Below, piece by piece: positions 1-19,769 of a stretch of 24,472 nt of DNA. This DNA comes from an uncultured Bacteroidales bacterium (GTDB lineage Bacteria; Bacteroidota; Bacteroidia; Bacteroidales; UBA932): positions 1 to 24,472 of the forward strand of contig CAKUYG010000010.1 in NCBI GenBank assembly GCA_934702165.1, written 5' to 3'. Each line of letters opens with the position of its first letter. Position 1 is the first letter of the stretch. The position numbers and the translations under genes are program-made. The notes beneath the pieces are model-generated. The model did no database searches, was not told the DNA's origin, and was given only the letters and a program-made list of their open reading frames with translations.

Positions 1-2203
1 CCTCAAGCACCTGCCGGAAGACCATATCCTGCTCGGCAACAAGCATGACAATTTCTGGGAGATGGGGGACACCGGCCCGTGCGGACCGTGCTCAGAAATC
101 CACATCGACATCCGCACCCCCGAGGAAAAGGCCGCCACTGGCCTGAGCGGACGCGAACTGGTCAACAAGTCCGACCCGCACGTGATCGAGATCTGGAACC
201 TCGTGTTCATGCAGTACCAGAGGATGGCCGACGGGCATCTGGAGAGTCTCCCGGCCCGCAACATCGACACCGGCATGGGATTTGAGCGCCTCTGCTGCGT
301 GCTTCAGGGCAAGGAGAGCAACTACGACACTGACGTGTTCAGCGGCCTGATCTCCAAGATCGCCGAGATCTCGGGACACCGCTATGGCGAAAATGCGCAG
401 GCCGACGTCGCCATGAGGGTCATAGCCGACCACATCCGCGCCATCAGTTTCAGCATAGCCGACGGCCAGCTTCCGTCCAACGTCAAGGCCGGATACGTGA
501 TCAGGAGAATCCTGCGCCGCGCCGTCCGCTACGGATATACTTTCCTCGGCCTGAACGAGCCGTTCCTCTGCCGACTGGTGCAGCAGCTCGTGGATGATAT
601 GGGCGAGGCCTACCCTGAGATAGCCAAACAGCAGAAATTCATCGAGAACGTCATCCGCGAGGAAGAACTGGCCTTCCTGCGCACCCTTGACAGGGGCATC
701 AAGCTGATGGACGAGTGCATCGCCAAGGCCGGCGAGGGCAAGGTCATCTCCGGGACGGACGCATTCAAACTATACGACACCTACGGCTTCCCTATCGACC
801 TCACCGAGCTGATCGCCGGGGAGAACGGCTGCGCGGTGGACCTGGAAGGCTTCAAGGTCGAGCTTCAGAAGCAGAAAGACAGGGCTCGCAACGCCACGGC
901 CAACACCTTCGGTGACTGGGCCATCTACCACAGCGGAGAGGATGTCGAGTTCACCGGATACGACACAACCCGCACGGAAGGCGCCCTGCTGCTAAAACAG
1001 AGGACCGTGGTCCAGAAAAACAAAGAGATGCTCCAGCTCGTCTTCGACCGCACCCCGTTCTACGGGGAAATGGGCGGTGAAGTCGGGGACACAGGATACA
1101 TCATCTCCGCCGACGGTGAACGTGTCAGGATCCTCAACACCATAAAGGAAAACAACCTCACCATCCACATCGCCGAGAAGCTCCCGCTCAACTGCGAGGG
1201 AGAGTTCACCTTGGAGGTAGACGAAGACCGCAGACGGAAGATCGCGGCCAACCACAGCTGCACGCACCTGCTCGACAGGGCGCTCAGAGAAGTGCTCGGA
1301 GATCACGTGGAGCAGAAAGGCTCGTACGTCTGCGACACCAGTTTCCGTTTCGACTTCTCCCACTTCGAGAAACTCAGCGACGAGCAGATTGCCAAGGTGG
1401 AGGCAAGGGTCAACCAGCTAATCCGCGACAACCTGCCGCTCCAGGAGAAACGCGACGCCACCATGGACGAAGCCAGGCAGATGGGTGCCATCGCCCTTTT
1501 CGGGGAAAAGTACGGTGACAGGGTGAGAGTCGTCAAGTTCGGTCCGAGCGTGGAACTCTGCGGCGGCTGCCACACCAGCGCCACCGGCAACATCGGATTC
1601 TTCAAAATCCTCTCCGAAAGTGCGATAGCCGCCGGCATCAGGCGTATTGAAGCCGTCACCGGCGAAGCCGCCGAGGCCTATGTCTACGGGATGCAGGAGC
1701 TGCTCAAGACCGCACGCTCATTCTTCAACAACGTGCCGGATCTCGCCGGGGCGATAAAGCACCTGGTGGAGGACAACGCCACCTTCAAGAAACAGGCGGA
1801 GGAGTTCGCCCGCCAGAAGGCCGCACAGCTTGCACAGCTGCTCGCCTCCAAGGCAGAGGAAGTGGGCGGCATCAAACTCATCGTGGCAAGCCGCATAGCC
1901 GAGAACGGCGGCGACCCGACGATGCTGCGCAACGCCGCGCTCGCCCTCCAGAAAGAGCTCAGCAACACAGCCCTCGCGGCAGCTTTCGAGTCCGACGGCA
2001 AGCCGCAGCTCCTCCTGATGTACTCCGACGACCTCGTGGCCAAAGGGCACAACGCCGGCAAGGAAATCCGTGAAGCCGCCAAGTTCATCCTCGGCGGAGG
2101 AGGCGGACAGCCGGGCCTGGCCTCAGCCGGCGGCAAGAACCTCGAGGGACTCAAAGACGCTCTCGACGCCCTTGTCAAGGCGGCGACAACCTCCGGAAAA
2201 TAG
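1..2203 (+). CDS. alaS: Alanyl-tRNA synthetase, 5'-truncated by the window edge
   Basis: Charges tRNA-Ala with alanine in the cytoplasm and clears mischarged tRNA with its editing domain. The frame is open from base 2 (LKHLPEDHILLGNKHDNF leads into the first in-window ATG at 62), so that ATG is internal and the true start lies outside. About 733 residues are visible, compared with roughly 870 for the full family. Landmarks in order: GPCGPCSEIH of the class II catalytic core, the editing-domain zinc motif HSCTH (inside NHSCTHLLDRAL), the second zinc motif CGGCH, and a C-Ala tail with a glycine run (GGGGGQPGLASAGG) that recognises the tRNA elbow. The stop is followed 15 bases later by the lptG-like start, so the two are probably co-transcribed. 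Identification is secure. Confidence 0.97.
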   Translation, partial: LKHLPEDHILLGNKHDNFWEMGDTGPCGPCSEIHIDIRTPEEKAATGLSGRELVNKSDPHVIEIWNLVFMQYQRMADGHLESLPARNIDTGMGFERLCCVLQGKESNYDTDVFSGLISKIAEISGHRYGENAQADVAMRVIADHIRAISFSIADGQLPSNVKAGYVIRRILRRAVRYGYTFLGLNEPFLCRLVQQLVDDMGEAYPEIAKQQKFIENVIREEELAFLRTLDRGIKLMDECIAKAGEGKVISGTDAFKLYDTYGFPIDLTELIAGENGCAVDLEGFKVELQKQKDRARNATANTFGDWAIYHSGEDVEFTGYDTTRTEGALLLKQRTVVQKNKEMLQLVFDRTPFYGEMGGEVGDTGYIISADGERVRILNTIKENNLTIHIAEKLPLNCEGEFTLEVDEDRRRKIAANHSCTHLLDRALREVLGDHVEQKGSYVCDTSFRFDFSHFEKLSDEQIAKVEARVNQLIRDNLPLQEKRDATMDEARQMGAIALFGEKYGDRVRVVKFGPSVELCGGCHTSATGNIGFFKILSESAIAAGIRRIEAVTGEAAEAYVYGMQELLKTARSFFNNVPDLAGAIKHLVEDNATFKKQAEEFARQKAAQLAQLLASKAEEVGGIKLIVASRIAENGGDPTMLRNAALALQKELSNTALAAAFESDGKPQLLLMYSDDLVAKGHNAGKEIREAAKFILGGGGGQPGLASAGGKNLEGLKDALDALVKAATTSGK

Positions 2204-2218: not shown

Positions 2219-4609
2219 ATGAAGAAACTCGACCGCTTCATACTGAAGTCGTTTTTAGGGCCGCTGGTAGCGATCCTGTTCGTCGTCGTCTTCATCCTTC
2301 TGCTCCAGTTTCTCTGGCTCTACATAGATGAGCTTGTAGGCAAAGGGTTGGGACTCAAGATCATCCTTGAGTTCCTGATGTGGGGAGCCTGCACGATTCT
2401 CCCTCAAGCCCTGCCGCTCGCGACCCTGCTGGCCTCCATGATGGTAGTGGGGCAGATGGCCGAGAACAACGAGCTTCTCGCCATCAAGGCAGCCGGAGTA
2501 TCGTTCTCCCGTATCATCGCCCCGCTCACGGCAGCTTCGCTGCTCATCGCCATCGGGGCGTTCTTCATCGGGGACCGTCTGGTGCCGCACGCCTTCAACA
2601 AGATCTACACCCTGCGTGACGACATCGGCCGTACCAAAAACGAGATCAAAATACCGTCAGGCACGTTCTACGACGGCATCGACGGCTACATCCTCAGAGT
2701 GGACGACCAAAGCAAAAAGAGCGGGATGCTATACGGGGTCATGGTCTACGACCACAGCGCCGGCAAGGGCAACATCTCGCTGACCTTGGCCGACTCGGCC
2801 CTCATCAAGATGTCCAGCCGCAAGGACTACCTGACATTCACGATGTTCGACGGATCCTCCTACCAAGAGGACAACAGCATACGCTATGCCGATACGAGCC
2901 TTGCCCTGCAGAGGGTCAAGTTCGCCAGACAGGAGATAGTGGTCCCCCTGTCCAACTACAACTTCGAGAAATCGGACTCGAGCCGCTTCGGCGACCAGGC
3001 CAAGTCCATGAGCGTGAAGCAGCTCAAGCACGACAGCGACTCGCTGCACCGCCATGTGGACTCCGTCCAGAGAGTGCACTACGCCTCCATCATCAGGATG
3101 AAGCCGTTCCAGGAGAGCGCACAGCTCGACACCGCGCTGCGCAACCCGGACAGAGCACTCTTCAGCTATGAGGGGTCATGTGAATGGAAGGACATCGACA
3201 GCAAGGCCATAGCCTACAAGGAGGCCGGAGAAAGGGCAAGCCGCTACGCATCCGACATCGGGAGCCTCAAGTTCGACACCTACGAGCAGGACTACTACAT
3301 CCGGCACACGGACATCGAGCTGCTGAAGAAATTCGCCCAGGCTCTCGCCTGCTTCATACTCTTTTTCATCGGTGCTCCGCTCGGCTCGCTTATACGCAAG
3401 GGCGGTCTGGGCACAAGCGCCATCATCTCAGTGCTCTTCTTCGTGCTGTACTGGGTGGTGGACATCTCAGGCACCAAACTCGCCAGGGACGGTGCGATCG
3501 GCGCCTTCGCCGGAGCGTTCATCTCAGCATTCATACTCGCACCGATAGGCATCTTCCTGACATGGAAGGCCATAAACGACTCAGAACTTTTCAATTTGGA
3601 TCAATTCAAGAATTGGCGCAGGAGGCTCAAGAGCAAGATTGCCGGCTTCTTCCGCCCTGTGCGCATAGTCTATATGGGCACCCCGGAATTTGCGGTGGCA
3701 CCGCTGGACAATCTCATCCGCAACAAGTACAAGGTCGTAGGGGTAGTGACAGTCCCGGACAAGCCGAGCGGACGCGGGCTCAAGGTAAACGAGAGCGCCG
3801 TCAAGCGCTACGCCGTGGAGCATGGACTTCCTCTGCTCCAGCCCGAGAGACTCAAGGATCCCGAATTCCTTGCATCACTCAAAGCATGGAAACCGGATCT
3901 CATAGTGGTGGTGGCCTTCCGCATGCTCCCAGAGGCCGTATGGTCAATGCCTCGGCTCGGCACCATCAACCTGCATGCCGCCCTGCTGCCGCAGTACCGC
4001 GGCGCAGCCCCTATCAACTGGGCAGTCATCAACGGGGAGAAGCTCACCGGAGTGACCACATTCATGATAGATAAGGACATAGACACCGGCGGCATCCTGA
4101 TGCGCCACGAGTGCAGGATAAGCCCTGTGGACACTGCCGGGGATGTGCATGACAAACTGATGGAGATCGGCTCGGACCTGGTACTCCAGACAGTGGAAGG
4201 ACTCATAGAGCACAACATAGAGACGAGGGTGCAGCGCTCTTTCATCCAAGGCTCGGAAGTGCTCAAGCCGGCACCGAAGCTCACCCGCGAGACCTGCCGC
4301 ATCGATTGGAACGACAGCAGCGAACACATCTACAACCTCATACGCGGCCTGAGCCCATATCCGGCAGCATTTACAGAGATCGCTGAAGGCGACAAGGCTC
4401 CGCAGACCCTCAAGATATACAGGGCGGAGAGAGTCGATCTGCACGCCGCTCCGGGAGAGATCCTCTCCGACGGCAAGACATATCTCGCCATAGCCACGGC
4501 CGACGGGGCCATCTCGCTCAAGGACATGCAGCTTTCCGGCAAGAAGAGGATGGAAGTCAAGGACTTCCTGCTAGGTTTCAGAAACCCTGACAAGTACCAT
4601 ATATGTTAA
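2219..4609 (+). CDS. LptF/LptG-family permease fused to methionyl-tRNA formyltransferase
   Basis: One uninterrupted 796-codon frame encodes two normally separate proteins. Residues 1-480 are an LptF/LptG (YjgP/YjgQ) permease: membrane segments near 13-35, 55-75 and 98-118, a long periplasmic region (about 120-365), then segments near 370-392, 398-418 and 425-447. That family moves lipopolysaccharide out of the inner membrane with LptB. Residues 481-796 are a full-length Fmt, which formylates initiator Met-tRNA. It opens VRIVYMGTPEFAV and keeps the catalytic Asn584, His586 (INLHAALLPQYRGAAPI) and Asp622 (IDKDIDTGG). The join falls exactly where a free Fmt would start: codon 481 is GTG and codon 486 is ATG. 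An AGGAGG lies about 34 bases before that GTG, so a separate Fmt could also be made. An AGGAGG directly touches the permease ATG, which is unusually close. The last 7 bases overlap the next gene. An assembly indel hiding a stop is the main alternative. Confidence 0.9.
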   Translation: MKKLDRFILKSFLGPLVAILFVVVFILLLQFLWLYIDELVGKGLGLKIILEFLMWGACTILPQALPLATLLASMMVVGQMAENNELLAIKAAGVSFSRIIAPLTAASLLIAIGAFFIGDRLVPHAFNKIYTLRDDIGRTKNEIKIPSGTFYDGIDGYILRVDDQSKKSGMLYGVMVYDHSAGKGNISLTLADSALIKMSSRKDYLTFTMFDGSSYQEDNSIRYADTSLALQRVKFARQEIVVPLSNYNFEKSDSSRFGDQAKSMSVKQLKHDSDSLHRHVDSVQRVHYASIIRMKPFQESAQLDTALRNPDRALFSYEGSCEWKDIDSKAIAYKEAGERASRYASDIGSLKFDTYEQDYYIRHTDIELLKKFAQALACFILFFIGAPLGSLIRKGGLGTSAIISVLFFVLYWVVDISGTKLARDGAIGAFAGAFISAFILAPIGIFLTWKAINDSELFNLDQFKNWRRRLKSKIAGFFRPVRIVYMGTPEFAVAPLDNLIRNKYKVVGVVTVPDKPSGRGLKVNESAVKRYAVEHGLPLLQPERLKDPEFLASLKAWKPDLIVVVAFRMLPEAVWSMPRLGTINLHAALLPQYRGAAPINWAVINGEKLTGVTTFMIDKDIDTGGILMRHECRISPVDTAGDVHDKLMEIGSDLVLQTVEGLIEHNIETRVQRSFIQGSEVLKPAPKLTRETCRIDWNDSSEHIYNLIRGLSPYPAAFTEIAEGDKAPQTLKIYRAERVDLHAAPGEILSDGKTYLAIATADGAISLKDMQLSGKKRMEVKDFLLGFRNPDKYHIC

Positions 4610-6009
4610 GAAGGATCAGAATCGCGGCAGCCGCCCTGTTCATCGTCGGGATCACGCTGCTATTCGCCGGTATCGGCCACCAATTGTGGGGCTGGATGGC
4701 TAAACTCCAGTTCCTCCCGTCCTGTATGGCACTGAATTTCTGTGCCATAGCCTTCATCTTGCTGTTGACTTTCGTCTTCGGCCGAATCTACTGCTCCGTC
4801 ATCTGTCCGATGGGAGTTTTCCAGGATCTTGTCATCAGTCTGCGCAAGGCTATCTCCCCGAAAGGGCACAAACCAAAGAGGCATTTCGTCAAGGAGCCGC
4901 GCATCGTCCGTTATGGCATTCTGGCTACCGTCATCGTAAGCGCTTTGACTTTCAGCCAGTTGCTGCTGACCGCTCTGGCACCGTACAGTGCTTATGGACG
5001 CGCGGTGCGCAGCGTCATCGGTCTCGCCAGCGGGGATAGCATCGCACCGGCACTGCTCATCACCGCATTCGTGACACTGGCCGTTATCATCGCCTGTGCG
5101 TGGATCTGGGGGCGCGGCTGGTGCAACACCATCTGCCCTGTAGGGTCGGTGCTCGGACTTGTCTCCCGATTCTCGCTCTTCAAGATCAGCATAGACAAGA
5201 GCCAGTGCGTCTCCTGCCACAAATGTGAGAGAGGTTGCAAATCATCATGCATCGACATAGACACTCACACCGTGGACAGCAGCCGGTGCGTGGACTGCTT
5301 CGACTGCCTGGACAGCTGTCCGAAAGGCGGTATAAAGTTCCGTTTCTCCCTGCCGGGCAAGACTGAGGCCAAGACGGAGAGTGTGGACAAGGGACGTCGC
5401 GCATTCATGACCACCACGGCCCTCGTCGGCGGAAGTCTCGCCCTCGGGGCACAGAACAAGCGGCTCGATGGCGGACTGGCCGAAGTGATCGACAAGACCT
5501 CACCAGAGCGCGCCGAGAGGCTGGTGCCGTTCGGGGCCAGAAGCGTCAAGGACTTCTACGACCGCTGCACCGCCTGCCAGCTCTGCGTGAGCAATTGCCC
5601 GAACGGGGTGCTCCGCGCCTCCACTGACTTAGAGCACTTCCTCCAGCCGCAGATGGGCTATGAAAAGGGCTGGTGCCGTCCGGAGTGCACCACCTGCAGC
5701 CAACTCTGTCCTGCGGGAGCAATCCTCCCTCTCGAAAAAGATGAAAAACTCTCGCACAAGATCGGCACGGCCAAAGTAAACCTGAGTCTGTGCCTCGCAG
5801 CCAAAGACGAAGCCGGATGCGGCAACTGCTCTCGCCACTGCCCGACAGGGGCTGTGCGCATGGTCAAGACAGACGGCTTCCGCAGGAGCATCCCGGTAGT
5901 GGCTGAAGCCCAGTGCATCGGCTGCGGCGCCTGCGAATATCTGTGCCCGTCAAGGCCGATAAGCGCCATTACTATAGATGGAATTTCCGTTCACACAAAA
6001 AAAGACTGA
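4603..6009 (+). CDS. NapH-NapG-like membrane polyferredoxin (fused quinol dehydrogenase)
   Basis: Predicted inner-membrane iron-sulfur protein of 468 residues that should take electrons from quinol and pass them outward. Residues 1-195 are NapH/CcoG-like: hydrophobic segments plus two CxxxCP motifs (RIYCSVICPMG, Cys64/68; RGWCNTICPVG, Cys174/178). Two ferredoxin clusters follow (Cys202/205/208/212, Cys229/232/235/239). A twin-arginine segment (GRRAFMTTTALVGGSLALG, Arg265-266) then precedes four more cysteine clusters around 322-332, 358-369, 397-413 and 438-448, the NapG-like part. The whole therefore resembles NapH joined to NapG, with potential for six 4Fe-4S clusters. It overlaps the preceding gene by 7 bases, and its stop is one base before the next start, so the three are likely translated from one message. 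The physiological electron acceptor is unknown; the adjacent reductase is the obvious candidate. Confidence 0.85.
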   Translation: MLRRIRIAAAALFIVGITLLFAGIGHQLWGWMAKLQFLPSCMALNFCAIAFILLLTFVFGRIYCSVICPMGVFQDLVISLRKAISPKGHKPKRHFVKEPRIVRYGILATVIVSALTFSQLLLTALAPYSAYGRAVRSVIGLASGDSIAPALLITAFVTLAVIIACAWIWGRGWCNTICPVGSVLGLVSRFSLFKISIDKSQCVSCHKCERGCKSSCIDIDTHTVDSSRCVDCFDCLDSCPKGGIKFRFSLPGKTEAKTESVDKGRRAFMTTTALVGGSLALGAQNKRLDGGLAEVIDKTSPERAERLVPFGARSVKDFYDRCTACQLCVSNCPNGVLRASTDLEHFLQPQMGYEKGWCRPECTTCSQLCPAGAILPLEKDEKLSHKIGTAKVNLSLCLAAKDEAGCGNCSRHCPTGAVRMVKTDGFRRSIPVVAEAQCIGCGACEYLCPSRPISAITIDGISVHTKKD

Positions 6010-6010
6010 T

Positions 6011-7351
6011 ATGGACAGAAGAGAATTTCTCAAGACCGCAGGTCTTGGCGCTGCCGCTGCAGGGCTCGCAGCCTGCGCCCCGAAGACGCTCACAGAGGAG
6101 AAGACCGGCGTTTCCGACAAAGGACTTGACGGCTCCATGCCGCAGCACTACCCTGGAGTGGGGCTGCTCGGCTACGGCTGCATGAGGTGGCCGATGGTCG
6201 ACGGAGATGACGGAAAGAAACACATCGACCAGCAGGAAGTCAACCGCTTGGTGGATTTCGCCCTCGAGCACGGAGTCAACTATTTCGACACATCTCCTGT
6301 CTACCTCGAAGGCGACAGCGAGCGGGCCACTGCCGAAGCCCTCAACCGGCATCCGCGCGAGAGCTGGCTTCTCGCCACCAAACTGTCCAATTTCTCGGAT
6401 GCATCCTATGACAACTCAGTCAAGATGTACCGCAAATCCCTGGAAATCTTCAAGACGGACCATGTGGACTACTACCTGCTGCATTCTCTTAGCGGCGGAG
6501 AGGATTTCTCAAGACGCTTTGGGGATACAGGGATCATGGAATTCCTGCTGAAGGAAAAGGCCGCGGGACATATCCGCCATCTGGGCTTCTCCTTCCACGG
6601 TGCCAAGAGCGGATTTGACGAGATGATGGCACTGCACGACAGCGGCAAATACCACTGGGACTTCGTCCAGATCCAGATGAACTATGTGGACTGGACCCAT
6701 GCCGGCGGACGCAACACCGACGCAGAATATCTTTACGGGGAACTCGACCGCAGGCAGATTCCGATAGTGATCATGGAGCCGCTGCGCGGAGGGCGTCTTG
6801 CAGACATGCCGGCAGGCACGGCTGACCTTTTGAAAGCCAAGGCCCCAGGGGACTCACTCGCTTCATGGGCTTTCCGTTTTGTCGGCAGCTATCCCCGGGT
6901 ACAGGTGGTGCTGAGCGGCATGACCTACATGGAGCACCTCCAGGACAACCTCCGCACCTTCCTCAACTTCAAGCCAGTGACCGACGAGGAGAAAACCCTT
7001 TTGGAAGAGGTCGCCGACAGGCTTGAGAACTACCCGTTGGTGCGCTGCACAGGCTGCCAGTACTGCATGCCATGCCCTTACGGGATCAACATCCCGGCCA
7101 TCTTCCGCTTCTACAACGACAGCGTCAACGCCGGCACCTACGTGACCAGCAAGGAGCAGAAAGGCTACGCCAAGGCCCGCAGTAATTATCTGCTCGCCTA
7201 CAACAAGGCCATCCCTGCGGTCCGCCAGGCCGATCACTGCATCGCCTGCGGCAAATGCGTGGGCGCATGCCCGCAGCACATCGCCATCCCGCGTGAGCTG
7301 CGCCGCATCGACCAGTACATCGAGAGCCTCAAGCGCGAGACGCTGGAGTAG
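6011..7351 (+). CDS. Tat-exported aldo/keto reductase lipoprotein with two 4Fe-4S clusters
   Basis: Predicted oxidoreductase of 446 residues. The chosen start (MDRREFLKTAGLGAAAAGLA) lies one base after the upstream stop and gives a textbook twin-arginine signal ending in a lipobox, LAAC. An in-frame ATG at 5978 would bury that signal and is less likely. The aldo/keto reductase barrel keeps the expected tetrad: Asp and Tyr in YFDTSPVYLEGDSE, Lys in LATKLS, His in YLLHS. The C-terminus adds two ferredoxin motifs, CTGCQYCMPCPYGINIP and CIACGKCVGACPQHIAIP. Classical family members use NADPH in the cytoplasm. Export plus iron-sulfur clusters suggests instead that electrons arrive from a membrane partner, most simply the NapH-NapG-like protein encoded just upstream. 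Substrate is unknown. Confidence 0.88.
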   Translation: MDRREFLKTAGLGAAAAGLAACAPKTLTEEKTGVSDKGLDGSMPQHYPGVGLLGYGCMRWPMVDGDDGKKHIDQQEVNRLVDFALEHGVNYFDTSPVYLEGDSERATAEALNRHPRESWLLATKLSNFSDASYDNSVKMYRKSLEIFKTDHVDYYLLHSLSGGEDFSRRFGDTGIMEFLLKEKAAGHIRHLGFSFHGAKSGFDEMMALHDSGKYHWDFVQIQMNYVDWTHAGGRNTDAEYLYGELDRRQIPIVIMEPLRGGRLADMPAGTADLLKAKAPGDSLASWAFRFVGSYPRVQVVLSGMTYMEHLQDNLRTFLNFKPVTDEEKTLLEEVADRLENYPLVRCTGCQYCMPCPYGINIPAIFRFYNDSVNAGTYVTSKEQKGYAKARSNYLLAYNKAIPAVRQADHCIACGKCVGACPQHIAIPRELRRIDQYIESLKRETLE

Positions 7352-7447: not shown

Positions 7448-8371
7448 TCAGAAGCTGTAGCCCAGTCCGAAGGTCATGGTGCCGCCGAGAGCTTCGGAAG
7501 CGAAGAGATAGGCGGCGTTGAGCTCAATGCCGAAGAACTTCACCCCGAGACCGGCGGAGGCAAAAGACGGCAGCACAGCCGTCTCCGGGCCATAGTGATA
7601 ACCGGCACGGGCGAACACCATATCCTTGAAAGAATACTGCACACCGGCAGCAGCCATAACGCTGCCGGAGAACAAATAGTCCAGATCCGCATCCACTTTG
7701 AGAGTGTGAACCTCAGACAGCGACCTTGTCCAGTCCACACCTACGCGGGCTGAAGCCGGTAATGACCAACTGTTGCCATCTGCACCCTTGACCTTGCTTC
7801 CAAGCGAAGCAGCTCCGGCAGTGATGTTGAAGTCAGAGAAGCGGTAGCTTACGAAAACATCCCCGCAAAATGCGGTGTAGGAGTCGTCTTTGCTGAGCTT
7901 TTGAGAAGCGAAACGGACATTGACGCCGGCAGAGAGATTGTCGATAATCTTCACGCCAAAGCCGAGCCCTGCAGAAAGCAGGGAGGGCTTGAATGTGCCG
8001 GCAGGATTCCCGGTCTCGTCAGTGAGATTGTACTCTTCGCCATTCTGCATGACACCGGCCACTGAAAGACCGAAGCGCTCTCCAAGTTTAAAGCCTGCAC
8101 CCAGACCCATGTTGGCACTGGCTGCCCCGTCCGGAGCCCAACTCTGATACGACGCTCCGAAGTCCATGCTCTTCTCCGAGAACGGTACGATGGAAGAGTT
8201 ACGCAACGCGGACCACGCCGTCCCGTTCGTAGAGGCGAGGCCTGCGAAGCCCATTCCTGTGGAAACAGGATCCTGCTCTACTCTCAATGACGGCATCGCC
8301 GTCTGGGCTGACAGAACTCCCGCAGAAAGCAGGCAGGCAGCCGCCAAAACGATTATGTTCTTATGCATCAT
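7448..8371 (-). CDS. PorV/PorQ-like outer-membrane beta-barrel protein
   Basis: Predicted outer-membrane barrel of 307 residues. It has a cleavable signal peptide (hydrophobic residues 5-20, ending SAQ) and then alternating amphipathic strands to a terminal aromatic residue (TMTFGLGYSF). The N-terminal part, with MGFAGLAST and ALRNSSIVPFSEKSMDFGASY, matches the pattern of PorV/PorQ family barrels; in T9SS, PorV acts as a shuttle for cargo leaving the translocon. Its ATG overlaps the protease stop by one base (TAATG), a strong sign of translational coupling with a T9SS-tagged cargo gene. It is the last gene of the operon. Whether it is a dedicated PorV paralogue or a more distant barrel cannot be settled here. 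A second ATG at 8368 is equally usable. Confidence 0.75.
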   Translation of the reverse strand: MMHKNIIVLAAACLLSAGVLSAQTAMPSLRVEQDPVSTGMGFAGLASTNGTAWSALRNSSIVPFSEKSMDFGASYQSWAPDGAASANMGLGAGFKLGERFGLSVAGVMQNGEEYNLTDETGNPAGTFKPSLLSAGLGFGVKIIDNLSAGVNVRFASQKLSKDDSYTAFCGDVFVSYRFSDFNITAGAASLGSKVKGADGNSWSLPASARVGVDWTRSLSEVHTLKVDADLDYLFSGSVMAAAGVQYSFKDMVFARAGYHYGPETAVLPSFASAGLGVKFFGIELNAAYLFASEALGGTMTFGLGYSF

Positions 8372-11013
8372 TACTTCTTGACTATATTTTGCTTATACTC
8401 CTTGTCCCCGATCTTGACAGAGACGACATACCTTCCAGGGGCCTCACCAGACATGTCCACCACGAGAGGATCGAGGATGCTCACGTCTGTCACCGTCTCA
8501 TATACCAGCCCACCGGTCTCAGAACGGACAGCCACCTCTGTGGAGGCTTTGACGCCGGTACCGATATTCAGTTTGTCCACCACAGGGTTAGGGTAAGTGG
8601 TGACAGGCTTTTCCGGATCCGGTATCGCCACACGGAAGCTGAATTCCGCAGTCTTGTTCTTGGCATCGGATGCGACCACGGTGACATTGGTCATGCCATA
8701 GTCCAGAGCTGTTCCGTTGAGGATATTGCCCTTAGGGTTGATGTGCAGAACGGCGACATTCTGGTTCTTCACCGTGTATTTCAGCGTCTCCCCATCCGGA
8801 TCCTCCACGTATTGCGACATGTCGATAGCGAACTTCTCACCCGGTGAAGCAAGGATCATGTCGTCAATCTGCTTTATCACAACTGGCGGATGGTTCTCGA
8901 GGATTTCGAAAGTCACTGTATAGTCAGTACTGTCCCACTTGTCACTTGCGATGATGTGGGCCGTATATACTCCTGCATCAGCCAGAGGGCCGCTTATCTT
9001 AAGCTCATACACCCCGCTTACGGTATTCTTCTCGAAGGTGTCGGCAGATGAGGTAGCGGACTGGTATTTGACAGTGAATGAGTGCCCGTCAGGGTCATAG
9101 ATATTGAAAGGAACAGTGAGGGTGTTATGCGAACGAATCCTGTAATCCCCTGTATATGAAGTCTCGATGACAGGAGGATTGTTCGGCAGGGTGCTCACAG
9201 TCTGGACTTCTCCAATTCCGGAGAAGTTGCGCCCATAGCTGAAAGCGCAAATCGACACAGCGTATTCAGTGTTGAAGTCAAGATTCTCGATGCTGCCGCT
9301 GAGCTGTGCACCCGTCGCAGCCGAACCAGTGTACACAACGGAACTCACCACCCCGGAAGGCAGGTTGTTGAAATCAAGCCCCTCAAGAAGACTCTTGTCC
9401 TTGGTGGCAAGGAGAATGAAGCCGTATGCCTTGTTACCGTCCTTGTCGGCAGTCAGCGACCAGCTGAAGTTGAGATTATTGGCTTTGGCCTCAACCTTGA
9501 GATCCTCCACCGGGGCAGGGGCCTGTGAACCTCCGTATACTATTGAGCCGATAGCATCCACGAGCGGACCTATCCTGGTGCTGGAAGAGAGAGCGTCCTT
9601 GCGCGCACCGTTGATGAGCCTCTCCTTGAGCATATCGTTGGTGAAGCCCTGGCCGCCATAATACGAAACTATGAGCGCAGCCACGCCAGACACGTGCGGA
9701 CATGCCATGGAAGTACCCTGCATCCATCCGTACTTGCTGCCCGGGATGGTGCTGTAGACCTGTCCGTTGCCGTAGTAGGCGTCTCCACCCGGAGCTGCGA
9801 TGTCCACCCAGTCCCCGTAGTTGGAGTAATAAGCCCTGTTGTAGTCCGGAGCGATAGAGCCGACAGCTATGACAGGCTCATAGTTGGCCGGGGCTCCGTA
9901 CTCGATGGCATCGTTGCCTGCAGCGAAGATCACCACTCCACCCTTCATCGGGGAGTTCGGGAGCTGGTTGCCGGCATTGTCACAGCCGGCGTACTTGATG
10001 AAGTAGTCCACGGCCTCTTTCTGGGCTGCACTGATCTTGCCTGCCTTGGCGGCCTCAAGCTCACTTCCTGTCACCTTGCCGTCACCGTTATAGTCGTAAT
10101 TGTATCCCCAGCTGTTCTGGGAGATCACGGCACCGTTGTCGGCTCCCCACTTGATCGCAGCGGCAGTATCTCCCCCGCGGTCATTGCCGTCTGCACCGGT
10201 CTCGAAAATCTGGCAGGACAGCAGGCGCACGCCCTTGATGCCCTTGGCGGCATCACCGCCGGCGATGCCCTCTACGCCCTTGCCGTTGTTGCTTATGGCA
10301 CCGATGGTGCCGGCCACATGGGTGCCATGATCATGCGCACTCACCTGACCTCCGGAGACGAAGTTGCGTCCGCCGACATAGGCATCAGCAAGATCCTCGT
10401 GATTGAAGTCGATACCGCCGTCAACCACGCTGACTATCACTTTCTCGCTTCCGACAGTGTAATTCTGCCAGACCGGCTGCACATTGATGTCGGCCCCGGC
10501 CTTATGCTTGGATGTAAGGGTGCCGTCGTTGTGATAGTGCCACTGGTATTTGGCGTACGGGTCATTGAAGTAGGAAATCTTCACCACCGGCACCGGCTCG
10601 GCTATGACGACTCCCGGGATGGCCCCGACTTCTTGTGTGGCCTTGGTGACGCTGACAGGCTTACGGTAGGTTACCTTATACCAGCGATGCAGCCCCTCGG
10701 CCCTCGTGCGCGGCTCGAACTCTCCCGCATACGGGAAGAGACGCTCCAAGGATTCGATGCCCAGCTGTTCGTACAGAGCGGCAACATCCGGAGAAGAAGC
10801 CTTGGTGACAACGCCTTCGGCGGCGAGATCCTTCTCTATGAGTTCCGCCGTCTGCTCGTCAAAATTGATGTTGAGTGTGCCTTGTTCGTATGCAGCCTCT
10901 TGCGGTGAAATGCTGACCTCCTCTTCAGAAGCCGGCACAGTCTCCCTGGAGCAGGAGAAAGCCGCAGCGAGAGCCGCGCATACGAGCGCGAGTGATAAAA
11001 GATTTCTCTTCAT
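8371..11013 (-). CDS. Secreted S8 (subtilisin) protease with T9SS sorting domain
   Basis: Predicted surface or secreted serine protease of 880 residues. A signal peptide with a possible lipobox (AFSC, Cys21) is followed by a propeptide-like region (about 40-150) and the catalytic domain (about 190-480): Asp198 (VVDGGIDFNHEDL), His229 (HDHGTHVAGT), oxyanion Asn367 (FAAGND) and Ser435 (GTSMACPHVSG). An EF-hand-like loop with Asp307, Asn309, Asp311 and Glu318 sits inside the domain. Next come an Fn3-like module (about 498-608) and two Ig/cadherin-like modules (about 612-705 and 708-797). The tail (TYPNPVVDKLNIGTG to YKQNIVKK) is a type A T9SS C-terminal domain, normally recognised by the translocon and removed by PorU. 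Six bases separate it from the upstream gene, and its stop overlaps the barrel gene. Likely role: degrading extracellular protein to feed the SusCD importer (inference). Confidence 0.93.
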   Translation of the reverse strand: MKRNLLSLALVCAALAAAFSCSRETVPASEEEVSISPQEAAYEQGTLNINFDEQTAELIEKDLAAEGVVTKASSPDVAALYEQLGIESLERLFPYAGEFEPRTRAEGLHRWYKVTYRKPVSVTKATQEVGAIPGVVIAEPVPVVKISYFNDPYAKYQWHYHNDGTLTSKHKAGADINVQPVWQNYTVGSEKVIVSVVDGGIDFNHEDLADAYVGGRNFVSGGQVSAHDHGTHVAGTIGAISNNGKGVEGIAGGDAAKGIKGVRLLSCQIFETGADGNDRGGDTAAAIKWGADNGAVISQNSWGYNYDYNGDGKVTGSELEAAKAGKISAAQKEAVDYFIKYAGCDNAGNQLPNSPMKGGVVIFAAGNDAIEYGAPANYEPVIAVGSIAPDYNRAYYSNYGDWVDIAAPGGDAYYGNGQVYSTIPGSKYGWMQGTSMACPHVSGVAALIVSYYGGQGFTNDMLKERLINGARKDALSSSTRIGPLVDAIGSIVYGGSQAPAPVEDLKVEAKANNLNFSWSLTADKDGNKAYGFILLATKDKSLLEGLDFNNLPSGVVSSVVYTGSAATGAQLSGSIENLDFNTEYAVSICAFSYGRNFSGIGEVQTVSTLPNNPPVIETSYTGDYRIRSHNTLTVPFNIYDPDGHSFTVKYQSATSSADTFEKNTVSGVYELKISGPLADAGVYTAHIIASDKWDSTDYTVTFEILENHPPVVIKQIDDMILASPGEKFAIDMSQYVEDPDGETLKYTVKNQNVAVLHINPKGNILNGTALDYGMTNVTVVASDAKNKTAEFSFRVAIPDPEKPVTTYPNPVVDKLNIGTGVKASTEVAVRSETGGLVYETVTDVSILDPLVVDMSGEAPGRYVVSVKIGDKEYKQNIVKK

Positions 11014-19242: not shown

Positions 19243-19420
19243 TTTCCAGTCAGTTAATATCCAAATAAAATTGGGCCTAATAATTTTGGTTTAACCTTTA
19301 TATTTTAATAATCAATATTTTATATAGTCGGCAAGAAGCCTTGTCGTTTGCGCGCAAGCGCCATCCCTACGTCTCCAGCGATCAGGGTTCTCAATCGAAC
19401 ACCATCTGATGAAGCCCGGC

Positions 19421-19628
19421 TCAATCCTTCAAACAACCTATAGGTACTATATATAATATATATACCGTCTTTGCGGCGATATGCATAGTCACCGACTCCG
19501 ACGAGCACCATCATGAATGAGGGATCATTCATCTTATCGGTGTTGATTCTCCCAGCCAGTTCTAGCAGATTTCCGGCCCCCTCTTCTATGAGCTTGTCGC
19601 CGCCCAATTTCACCTCTACAAGGCCATA
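19421..19628 (-). pseudogene. C-terminal remnant of a DUF4143-type ATPase, frameshifted
   Basis: The reading YGLVEVKLGGDKLIEEGAGN, then LLELAGRINTDKMNDPSF, MMVLVGVGDYAYRRKDGIYI matches the C-terminal end of the AAA ATPase/DUF4143 family, whose full members have about 400 residues; about 70 are left. The family normally closes with a sequence like VPIGCLKD and a stop. That ending exists here, but in another frame: GTA CCT ATA GGT TGT TTG AAG GAT TGA, ending at 19421. The frame is lost in the AT run at 19448-19464, and the sequence is explained by 7 extra bases (ATATATA) after ATT. Upstream of 19628 the family similarity stops and repeats begin. A 130-codon open frame reading through to 19320 is therefore not a real gene. 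Confidence 0.75.
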
Positions 19629-19652
19629 GAAAAATATTTTCTGTTTCCTCAA

Positions 19653-19692
19653 TTGGCGCGTTTTTGCTTCTGAGTTGGCGCACTTTTGCTTC
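19653..19692. repeat. Two 18-bp near-identical direct repeats
   Basis: TTGGCGCGTTTTTGCTTC (19653-19670) and TTGGCGCACTTTTGCTTC (19675-19692) differ at two positions and are spaced 22 bases start to start. They border the truncated end of the ATPase remnant. Confidence 0.7.
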
Positions 19693-19705
19693 CCGGTTTG
19701 GCTGT

Positions 19706-19769
19706 ATTCCAAAATTTACGCTAAATCTTGGAGTGGCATTCCGAAAATTACGCTAATTTTTGGAATTGC
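19706..19769. repeat. Tandem pair of 32-bp palindromic repeats
   Basis: Unit A (19706-19737) and unit B (19738-19769) agree at 26 of 32 positions by hand alignment. Each contains a near-palindrome around a CGC centre; in B the arms are TTCCGAAAATTA and TAATTTTTGGAA, one mismatch in 12. Function is unknown. Confidence 0.75.

Follow-up and report, generated by a model that had tools for sequence, protein, structure and literature searches.

Methionyl-tRNA formyltransferase (Fmt) is known as a free enzyme of the cytosol that is translated from its own start codon, while the LptF/LptG-family permeases are the two membrane subunits of LptB2FG, the inner-membrane LPS-export transporter. In their known activities, the LptF/LptG permease and Fmt each work without the other. 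The formyltransferase fold also occurs within longer proteins, such as ArnA, which formylates a lipid A sugar donor, HypX and 10-formyl-THF dehydrogenase. To our knowledge, these are soluble enzyme domains that have been joined and act on other substrates, and none of them is fused to a membrane transporter. No published description of an LptF/LptG-Fmt fusion was found in the open-access literature, as judged by titles and the beginnings of abstracts, in agreement with an earlier note on this DNA, which knew of no described protein joining LPS export to initiator-tRNA formylation.

Herein, a gene of this kind is described in a stretch of 24,472 nucleotides (the window) from an uncultured Bacteroidales bacterium (assembly GCA_934702165.1, contig CAKUYG010000010.1). 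The gene is likely to encode a genuine bifunctional protein in which Fmt, probably the sole copy in the cell, is tethered to the inner membrane. A single open frame without internal stop runs from the ATG at 2219 to the stop at 4609 and encodes 796 residues. The features of the locus are as follows:

62–2203, forward strand: alaS, its first part outside the window (TIGR00344, 654 bits from profile position 153)
2219–4609, forward strand: fused gene, LptF/LptG-family permease plus methionyl-tRNA formyltransferase, 796 aa
2234–3568, forward strand: LptF/LptG permease domain, residues 6–450 (PF03739, helices, Foldseek)
3572–3664, forward strand: linker, residues 452–482, 31 aa, net basic, equivalent to the cytoplasmic tail of unfused LptF/LptG
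3620–3625, forward strand: AGGAGG in the part of the gene that encodes the linker, not conserved
3659–3661, forward strand: GTG codon (Val481), proposed start of a free Fmt, not conserved
3662–4579, forward strand: methionyl-tRNA formyltransferase domains, Formyl_trans_N (residues 482–658) and Formyl_trans_C (residues 687–787) (Pfam)
3968–3976, forward strand: codons of the catalytic Asn584 and His586
4082–4084, forward strand: codon of the catalytic Asp622
4603–6009, forward strand: NapH-like polyferredoxin gene, whose start overlaps the end of the fusion

The N-terminal half resembles the LptF/LptG subunits of LptB2FG (PF03739; PDB 5x5y). It covers the full LptF_LptG profile of Pfam (positions 1–353 of 353, 226 bits, over the cut-off) and keeps the six long helices, the third of which is followed by a beta domain. 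Unlike those subunits, it carries a helical insert and a fused enzyme, and the fused protein scores below the equivalog cut-offs of both the LptF model (TIGR04407, 138.5 of 230 bits) and the LptG model (TIGR04408, 100.2 of 240 bits). Because both strict models score under their cut-offs, LptF and LptG are indistinguishable here, and the permease half is assigned to the LptF/LptG family only. The C-terminal half resembles Fmt (TIGR00460; E. coli Fmt, PDB 1fmt and 2fmt) in its complete N- and C-terminal domains, the latter being the tRNA-binding Formyl_trans_C (PF02911, 88 bits), and it passes the NCBIfam fmt model with 253.3 bits against a cut-off of 201.5. Residues N584, H586 and D622 (P0001 numbering), the catalytic Asn-His-Asp of Fmt, are all present, and they are kept in 110/110 fused and 64/64 unfused Fmt sequences aligned. 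It differs from known Fmt in forming the C-terminal half of a membrane protein. The earlier reading of this frame as an in-frame fusion of a complete permease with a complete Fmt, its Asn-His-Asp intact, is thus upheld by the full Pfam profile, TIGR00460 and the open frame.

An AlphaFold2 model built with 66 sequences reached a mean pLDDT of 81.3 and a pTM of 0.45, the relative placement of the two halves being undefined. In the permease half, the model contains six long helices (residues 3–40, 46–82, 96–139, 355–391, 396–424 and 435–452), the beta domain, and an extra helical hairpin or insert at about residues 252–353. A further helix at 460–478, in the linker region, was predicted with low confidence (pLDDT 57–58 at residues 451–470), and the amphipathic moment of this helix in the window was not significant, 17% of shuffles reaching the same value. 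In Foldseek comparisons, the permease half matched the LptB2FG chain 5x5y_F with a probability of 1.00, but with an rmsd of 12.2. The Fmt half matched solved Fmt structures, the 11 top Fmt chains giving TMt values of 0.85–0.91 (0.85 for 2fmt_A) at 33–39% identity. Since the permease has six long helices, both of its ends should lie on one side of the membrane, which from the known LptB2FG topology we take to be the cytoplasm, the beta domain being presumably periplasmic. The Fmt half is accordingly expected at the cytoplasmic face of the inner membrane, and the anchoring of formylation there, suggested at the outset, finds support in this six-helix topology.

The linker spans the distance from the end of the last transmembrane helix to the first Fmt strand. 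Measured in the alignment from the residue aligned to A451 to the Fmt fold, it has a median length of 31 residues (range 30–46) in 110 fused loci. The tail of unfused permeases has a median of 36 residues (range 27–171, 45 loci), and of 32 in the 38 of these 45 loci with tails under 60 residues. The two domains had been thought to follow each other with no linker; this was wrong, because the permease's own basic tail became a linker of 31 residues, about the length of the cytoplasmic tail in most unfused relatives. Six unfused permeases (L114, L118, L123, L125, L136 and L137) stand apart, with a tail of 146–171 residues versus about 32.

The gene order of relatives points to the origin of the join. 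A total of 181 loci were classified, namely 180 fetched loci and the window. The raw classes were 111 fused, 47 adjacent, 3 apart and 20 with no permease in their stretch; two of the adjacent loci (L062 and L170) are fused genes with a frameshift, which corrects the numbers to 113 fused and 45 adjacent, and these ratios are no census, because the 100 loci from the family of the unfused genome G031 (60 unfused, 40 fused) were picked from listed rows. Where a locus extends 1500 nt or more upstream, alaS is found no further than 400 nt before the gene in 99/101 fused and 30/39 adjacent unfused cases. Downstream, a gene that we read as a putative thiamine pyrophosphokinase is found in 48/108 fused and 28/44 adjacent unfused loci. 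In the unfused relative L068 and others, the two genes belong to the same operon, in the order alaS-lptF/G-fmt, and in L068 the permease stop and the ATG of fmt are 7 bases apart in different frames. In an alignment with L068, 22 bases are missing from the window and from six fused relatives, and with them the stop codon of the permease gene, the intervening spacer and the fmt start codon. Within this packed operon, a small deletion removing these three elements would have produced the fusion, and the alignment suggests such a deletion as the fusing event. Neutral fixation is the simplest account, since near-overlapping neighbours need only a small indel and reversal is hard once start and stop are lost.

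An error of sequencing or assembly, in which a lost stop or an indel merged two separate genes, has a next to negligible probability, even though unfused relatives have these genes adjacent or overlapping. In a search of a protein database of 5.8 billion, all three domains were present in 120/120 listed homologues (65–97% identity, the best 120 of 7672 matches), and the nearest cluster, P0002 (97% identity), comprises 338 members on 23 contigs. In addition, the listed through-matches in the family of G031 (150/150) are free of stops. This shared architecture and the absence of stops lead to the rejection of an assembly error: the search of related genomes proposed in the earlier note recovered the same fusion, and a stop or missing base between the domains is not general among relatives. 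Among 80 loci in genome contigs, 72 are fused (one of them, L062, with a frameshift), five are unfused (L068, L074, L075, L077 and L079) and three consist of an fmt fragment at the end of a contig (L073, L076 and L078). It is likewise highly improbable that the C-terminal half is an ArnA-like N-formyltransferase of LPS or lipid A sugars, an identity that would suit an LPS permease as neighbour. ArnA has the same fold and a lipid A-related activity, and its model NF005998 matches at 147 bits, but TIGR00460 is passed at 253 bits while the other formyltransferase models listed remain under their cut-offs, no other protein exceeds the Fmt cut-off in any of the 32 fused genomes examined, and the C-terminal half occupies the position of the relatives' free fmt. 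An identity with ArnA itself was rejected (146.9 of 777 bits for NF005998), a decarboxylase or other further domain being absent according to Pfam.

The remaining alternatives would release Fmt from the membrane. Very unlikely is the internal initiation put forward in the earlier note, in which a free Fmt would be translated from the GTG at 3659 with the aid of the AGGAGG at 3620, so that one gene yields both forms. Both elements do exist in the window, and the fmt of unfused relatives starts near the join; neither, however, is conserved. The position of the GTG holds GTG in 14/112 fused loci, threonine codons being commonest (50/112), and AGGAGG is present in the 80 nt before the Fmt fold in 3/112. 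An in-frame ATG, GTG or TTG within 12 codons before the fold is found in 60/112 fused loci, versus 63/64 unfused ones and a chance expectation of 55.6% derived from the overall frequency in fused loci; for ATG alone, the counts are 22/112 and 57/64. Furthermore, 33 bases separate the AGGAGG from the GTG, and usual Shine-Dalgarno spacing is much shorter. Given this lack of conservation, and with in-frame starts around the join about as frequent as chance predicts, free Fmt from internal initiation is unsupported as a conserved feature, although a single species may still use such a start. Somewhat less improbable, yet still unlikely, is that the fused chain is made and then cut in a flexible linker, leaving Fmt free in the cytoplasm as usual. 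The basic character of the linker and its low model confidence would allow this, and neither half requires the other for its known activity. Against it stand the linker length, held to 30–46 residues across the 110 fused loci, and the aligned joins, in which a cleavage motif is not apparent by eye.

The reading of a bifunctional, membrane-tethered protein is favoured by the copy number in relatives. Fmt is found over the TIGR00460 cut-off exactly once in 33/33 genomes examined, those behind 33 of the 80 contig loci, in a frame of 798–996 aa in the 32 fused genomes and of 339 aa in the unfused G031 (L068). The check for a second fmt, made in the genomes of relatives, revealed no further Fmt over the cut-off in any of the 32 genomes carrying the fusion, and judged from these the fused copy is probably the cell's only Fmt. 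A separate free LptF/LptG copy is present in 24/26 fused genomes of relatives, and no second LptF/LptG was seen in the other two searched (G006 and G022). Since peptide deformylase is over the cut-off in 26/26 fused genomes (G011 has only a 75-aa piece), the formylation cycle is present. One further genome, G147, has two Fmt genes that exceed the cut-off, on contigs C253 and C378; both are unfused, and the assembly is perhaps mixed.

In the proposed bifunctional protein, the N-terminal half would provide the exporter with one of its two subunits of the LptF/LptG family, and the C-terminal half would act as a catalytically complete Fmt joined through the short basic cytoplasmic tail of the permease. 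Such a protein is expected because both halves keep the features of their families. From the sequences we infer that both halves are active and that the chain stays uncleaved, so that Fmt would be tethered at the cytoplasmic face of the inner membrane near its substrates, with one Fmt per transporter. Initiator-tRNA formylation would be supplied from the membrane, and it would depend on the tethered enzyme because the fused Fmt is probably the only one in the cell.

The number of fusion events was addressed with a three-gene tree of AlaS, permease and Fmt (131 rows, 98 of them fused, rooted on two Bacteroidales outgroups). In this tree, 94 fused rows including the window form one clade, and the fused L157, L161, L163 and L165 fall in a separate clade of eight together with four unfused rows. 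With L062 and L170 relabelled as fused, two changes are needed; L155, left out of the tree because its stretch yielded no alaS, would raise this number by one. A quick likelihood tree (LG+G4) of 61 of the 131 rows agrees, and a single clade of all fused genes was rejected on these 61 rows (lnL difference 160, p-AU 4.2e-6). The Fmt-only tree suggests four changes, three of them forced by starred branches, and the AlaS and permease trees require four each, with L062 and L170 still labelled unfused. The join of L157, L161, L163 and L165 also differs, having 45–46 linker residues versus the overall median of 31. A second fusion fits this group, the alternative being one early fusion and a later split; the trees thus indicate at least two fusions, or a single fusion with a later split. 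In the Fmt tree, L155 stands beside the unfused L127 with a support of 100, away from the other fused groups. Because its nearest permease relatives (P0122, P0123, P0124, P0127, P0128 and P0135; 75–89% identity, 478–484 aa) are unfused, L155, whose fusion rests on one assembly, is either an additional, recent fusion or an artefact of that assembly.

Altogether, two neighbouring genes appear to have been fused on more than one occasion. Such recurrence hints at tolerance or advantage and is no proof of selection. A stronger reading holds that, across much of a family of Bacteroidales from the gut, formylation is now an inner-membrane activity in obligatory 1:1 ratio with the LPS exporter, and that the link, with at least two independent fusions behind it, is under selection as a coupling of envelope assembly to the start of translation or to the folate one-carbon state; we regard this as unlikely.

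The carriers of the fusion are uncultured gut bacteria and form a large group; among the genomes sampled, all of them belong to a single family-level group of Bacteroidales, Candidatus Cryptobacteroides included. Of the genomes sampled from the family of G031, 251/398 match the fused protein at E <= 1e-170, a number that is an overcount because G190 (L140), G204 (L128) and G144 are unfused despite their match: the first two have separate in-phase genes and the match reads through the stop, and G144 has Fmt in a 323-aa frame. The 150 listed of the 251 matching genomes all have uninterrupted frames of 696 aa or more, and a further 28 of the remaining 101, fetched as loci, are fused (one, G403, with a frameshift), so that at least 178/398 genomes of the family carry the fusion. 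In 25/398, no Fmt match was found at E <= 1e-50, incomplete assemblies being the likely reason. Across the order, an uninterrupted whole-length match occurs in 3/393 genomes (G055, G073 and G038), all of which are also in the family sample, and across the phylum 1/296 genomes passes E <= 1e-130, this being the unfused G031 itself. The fused loci include Candidatus Cryptobacteroides, the genome behind L002 (G002) is among those sampled from the family, and the name of one fused protein points to Candidatus Coprenecus. A family name is withheld for the fused group because NCBI places the former in Bacteroidales incertae sedis and the latter in Rikenellaceae.

The fusion explains why names in databases describe just one of the two halves: among the matches listed, 8/9 named fused clusters are called methionyl-tRNA formyltransferase and 1/9 LPS export permease. 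As the apparently sole copy in many species, the fused enzyme is a natural experiment on whether formylation of the initiator tRNA requires an enzyme that diffuses freely. A probably recurrent gene fusion with unfused relatives and readable junctions also makes neutral and selected origins comparable.

Several other arrangements were also observed. In two other Bacteroidales genomes (L189, 4118–6940; L190, 2353–5175), an fmt frame lies 6 bases behind, and in phase with, a gene named a ClC-type channel from reading its sequence, another case of fmt after a membrane-protein gene. The 940-aa frames had raised the suspicion of a channel-Fmt fusion, which was discarded as two genes with a stop between them. 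In the window, the NapH-like polyferredoxin gene is followed by a TAT-signal aldo/keto reductase with a ferredoxin domain (4603–7351, forward strand), the genes overlapping the fusion and each other; similar genes also occur in the stretches of L062, L162, L170 and L177. Further along, a gene for a PorV/PorQ-family protein adjoins one for a subtilase with a type IX secretion sorting tail (7448–11013, reverse strand). Finally, a 130-aa frame between the genes for a SusC-like receptor and ATP synthase (19320–19712, reverse strand) gives the impression, from its sequence, of the tail end of a larger protein, possibly what remains of an ATPase.
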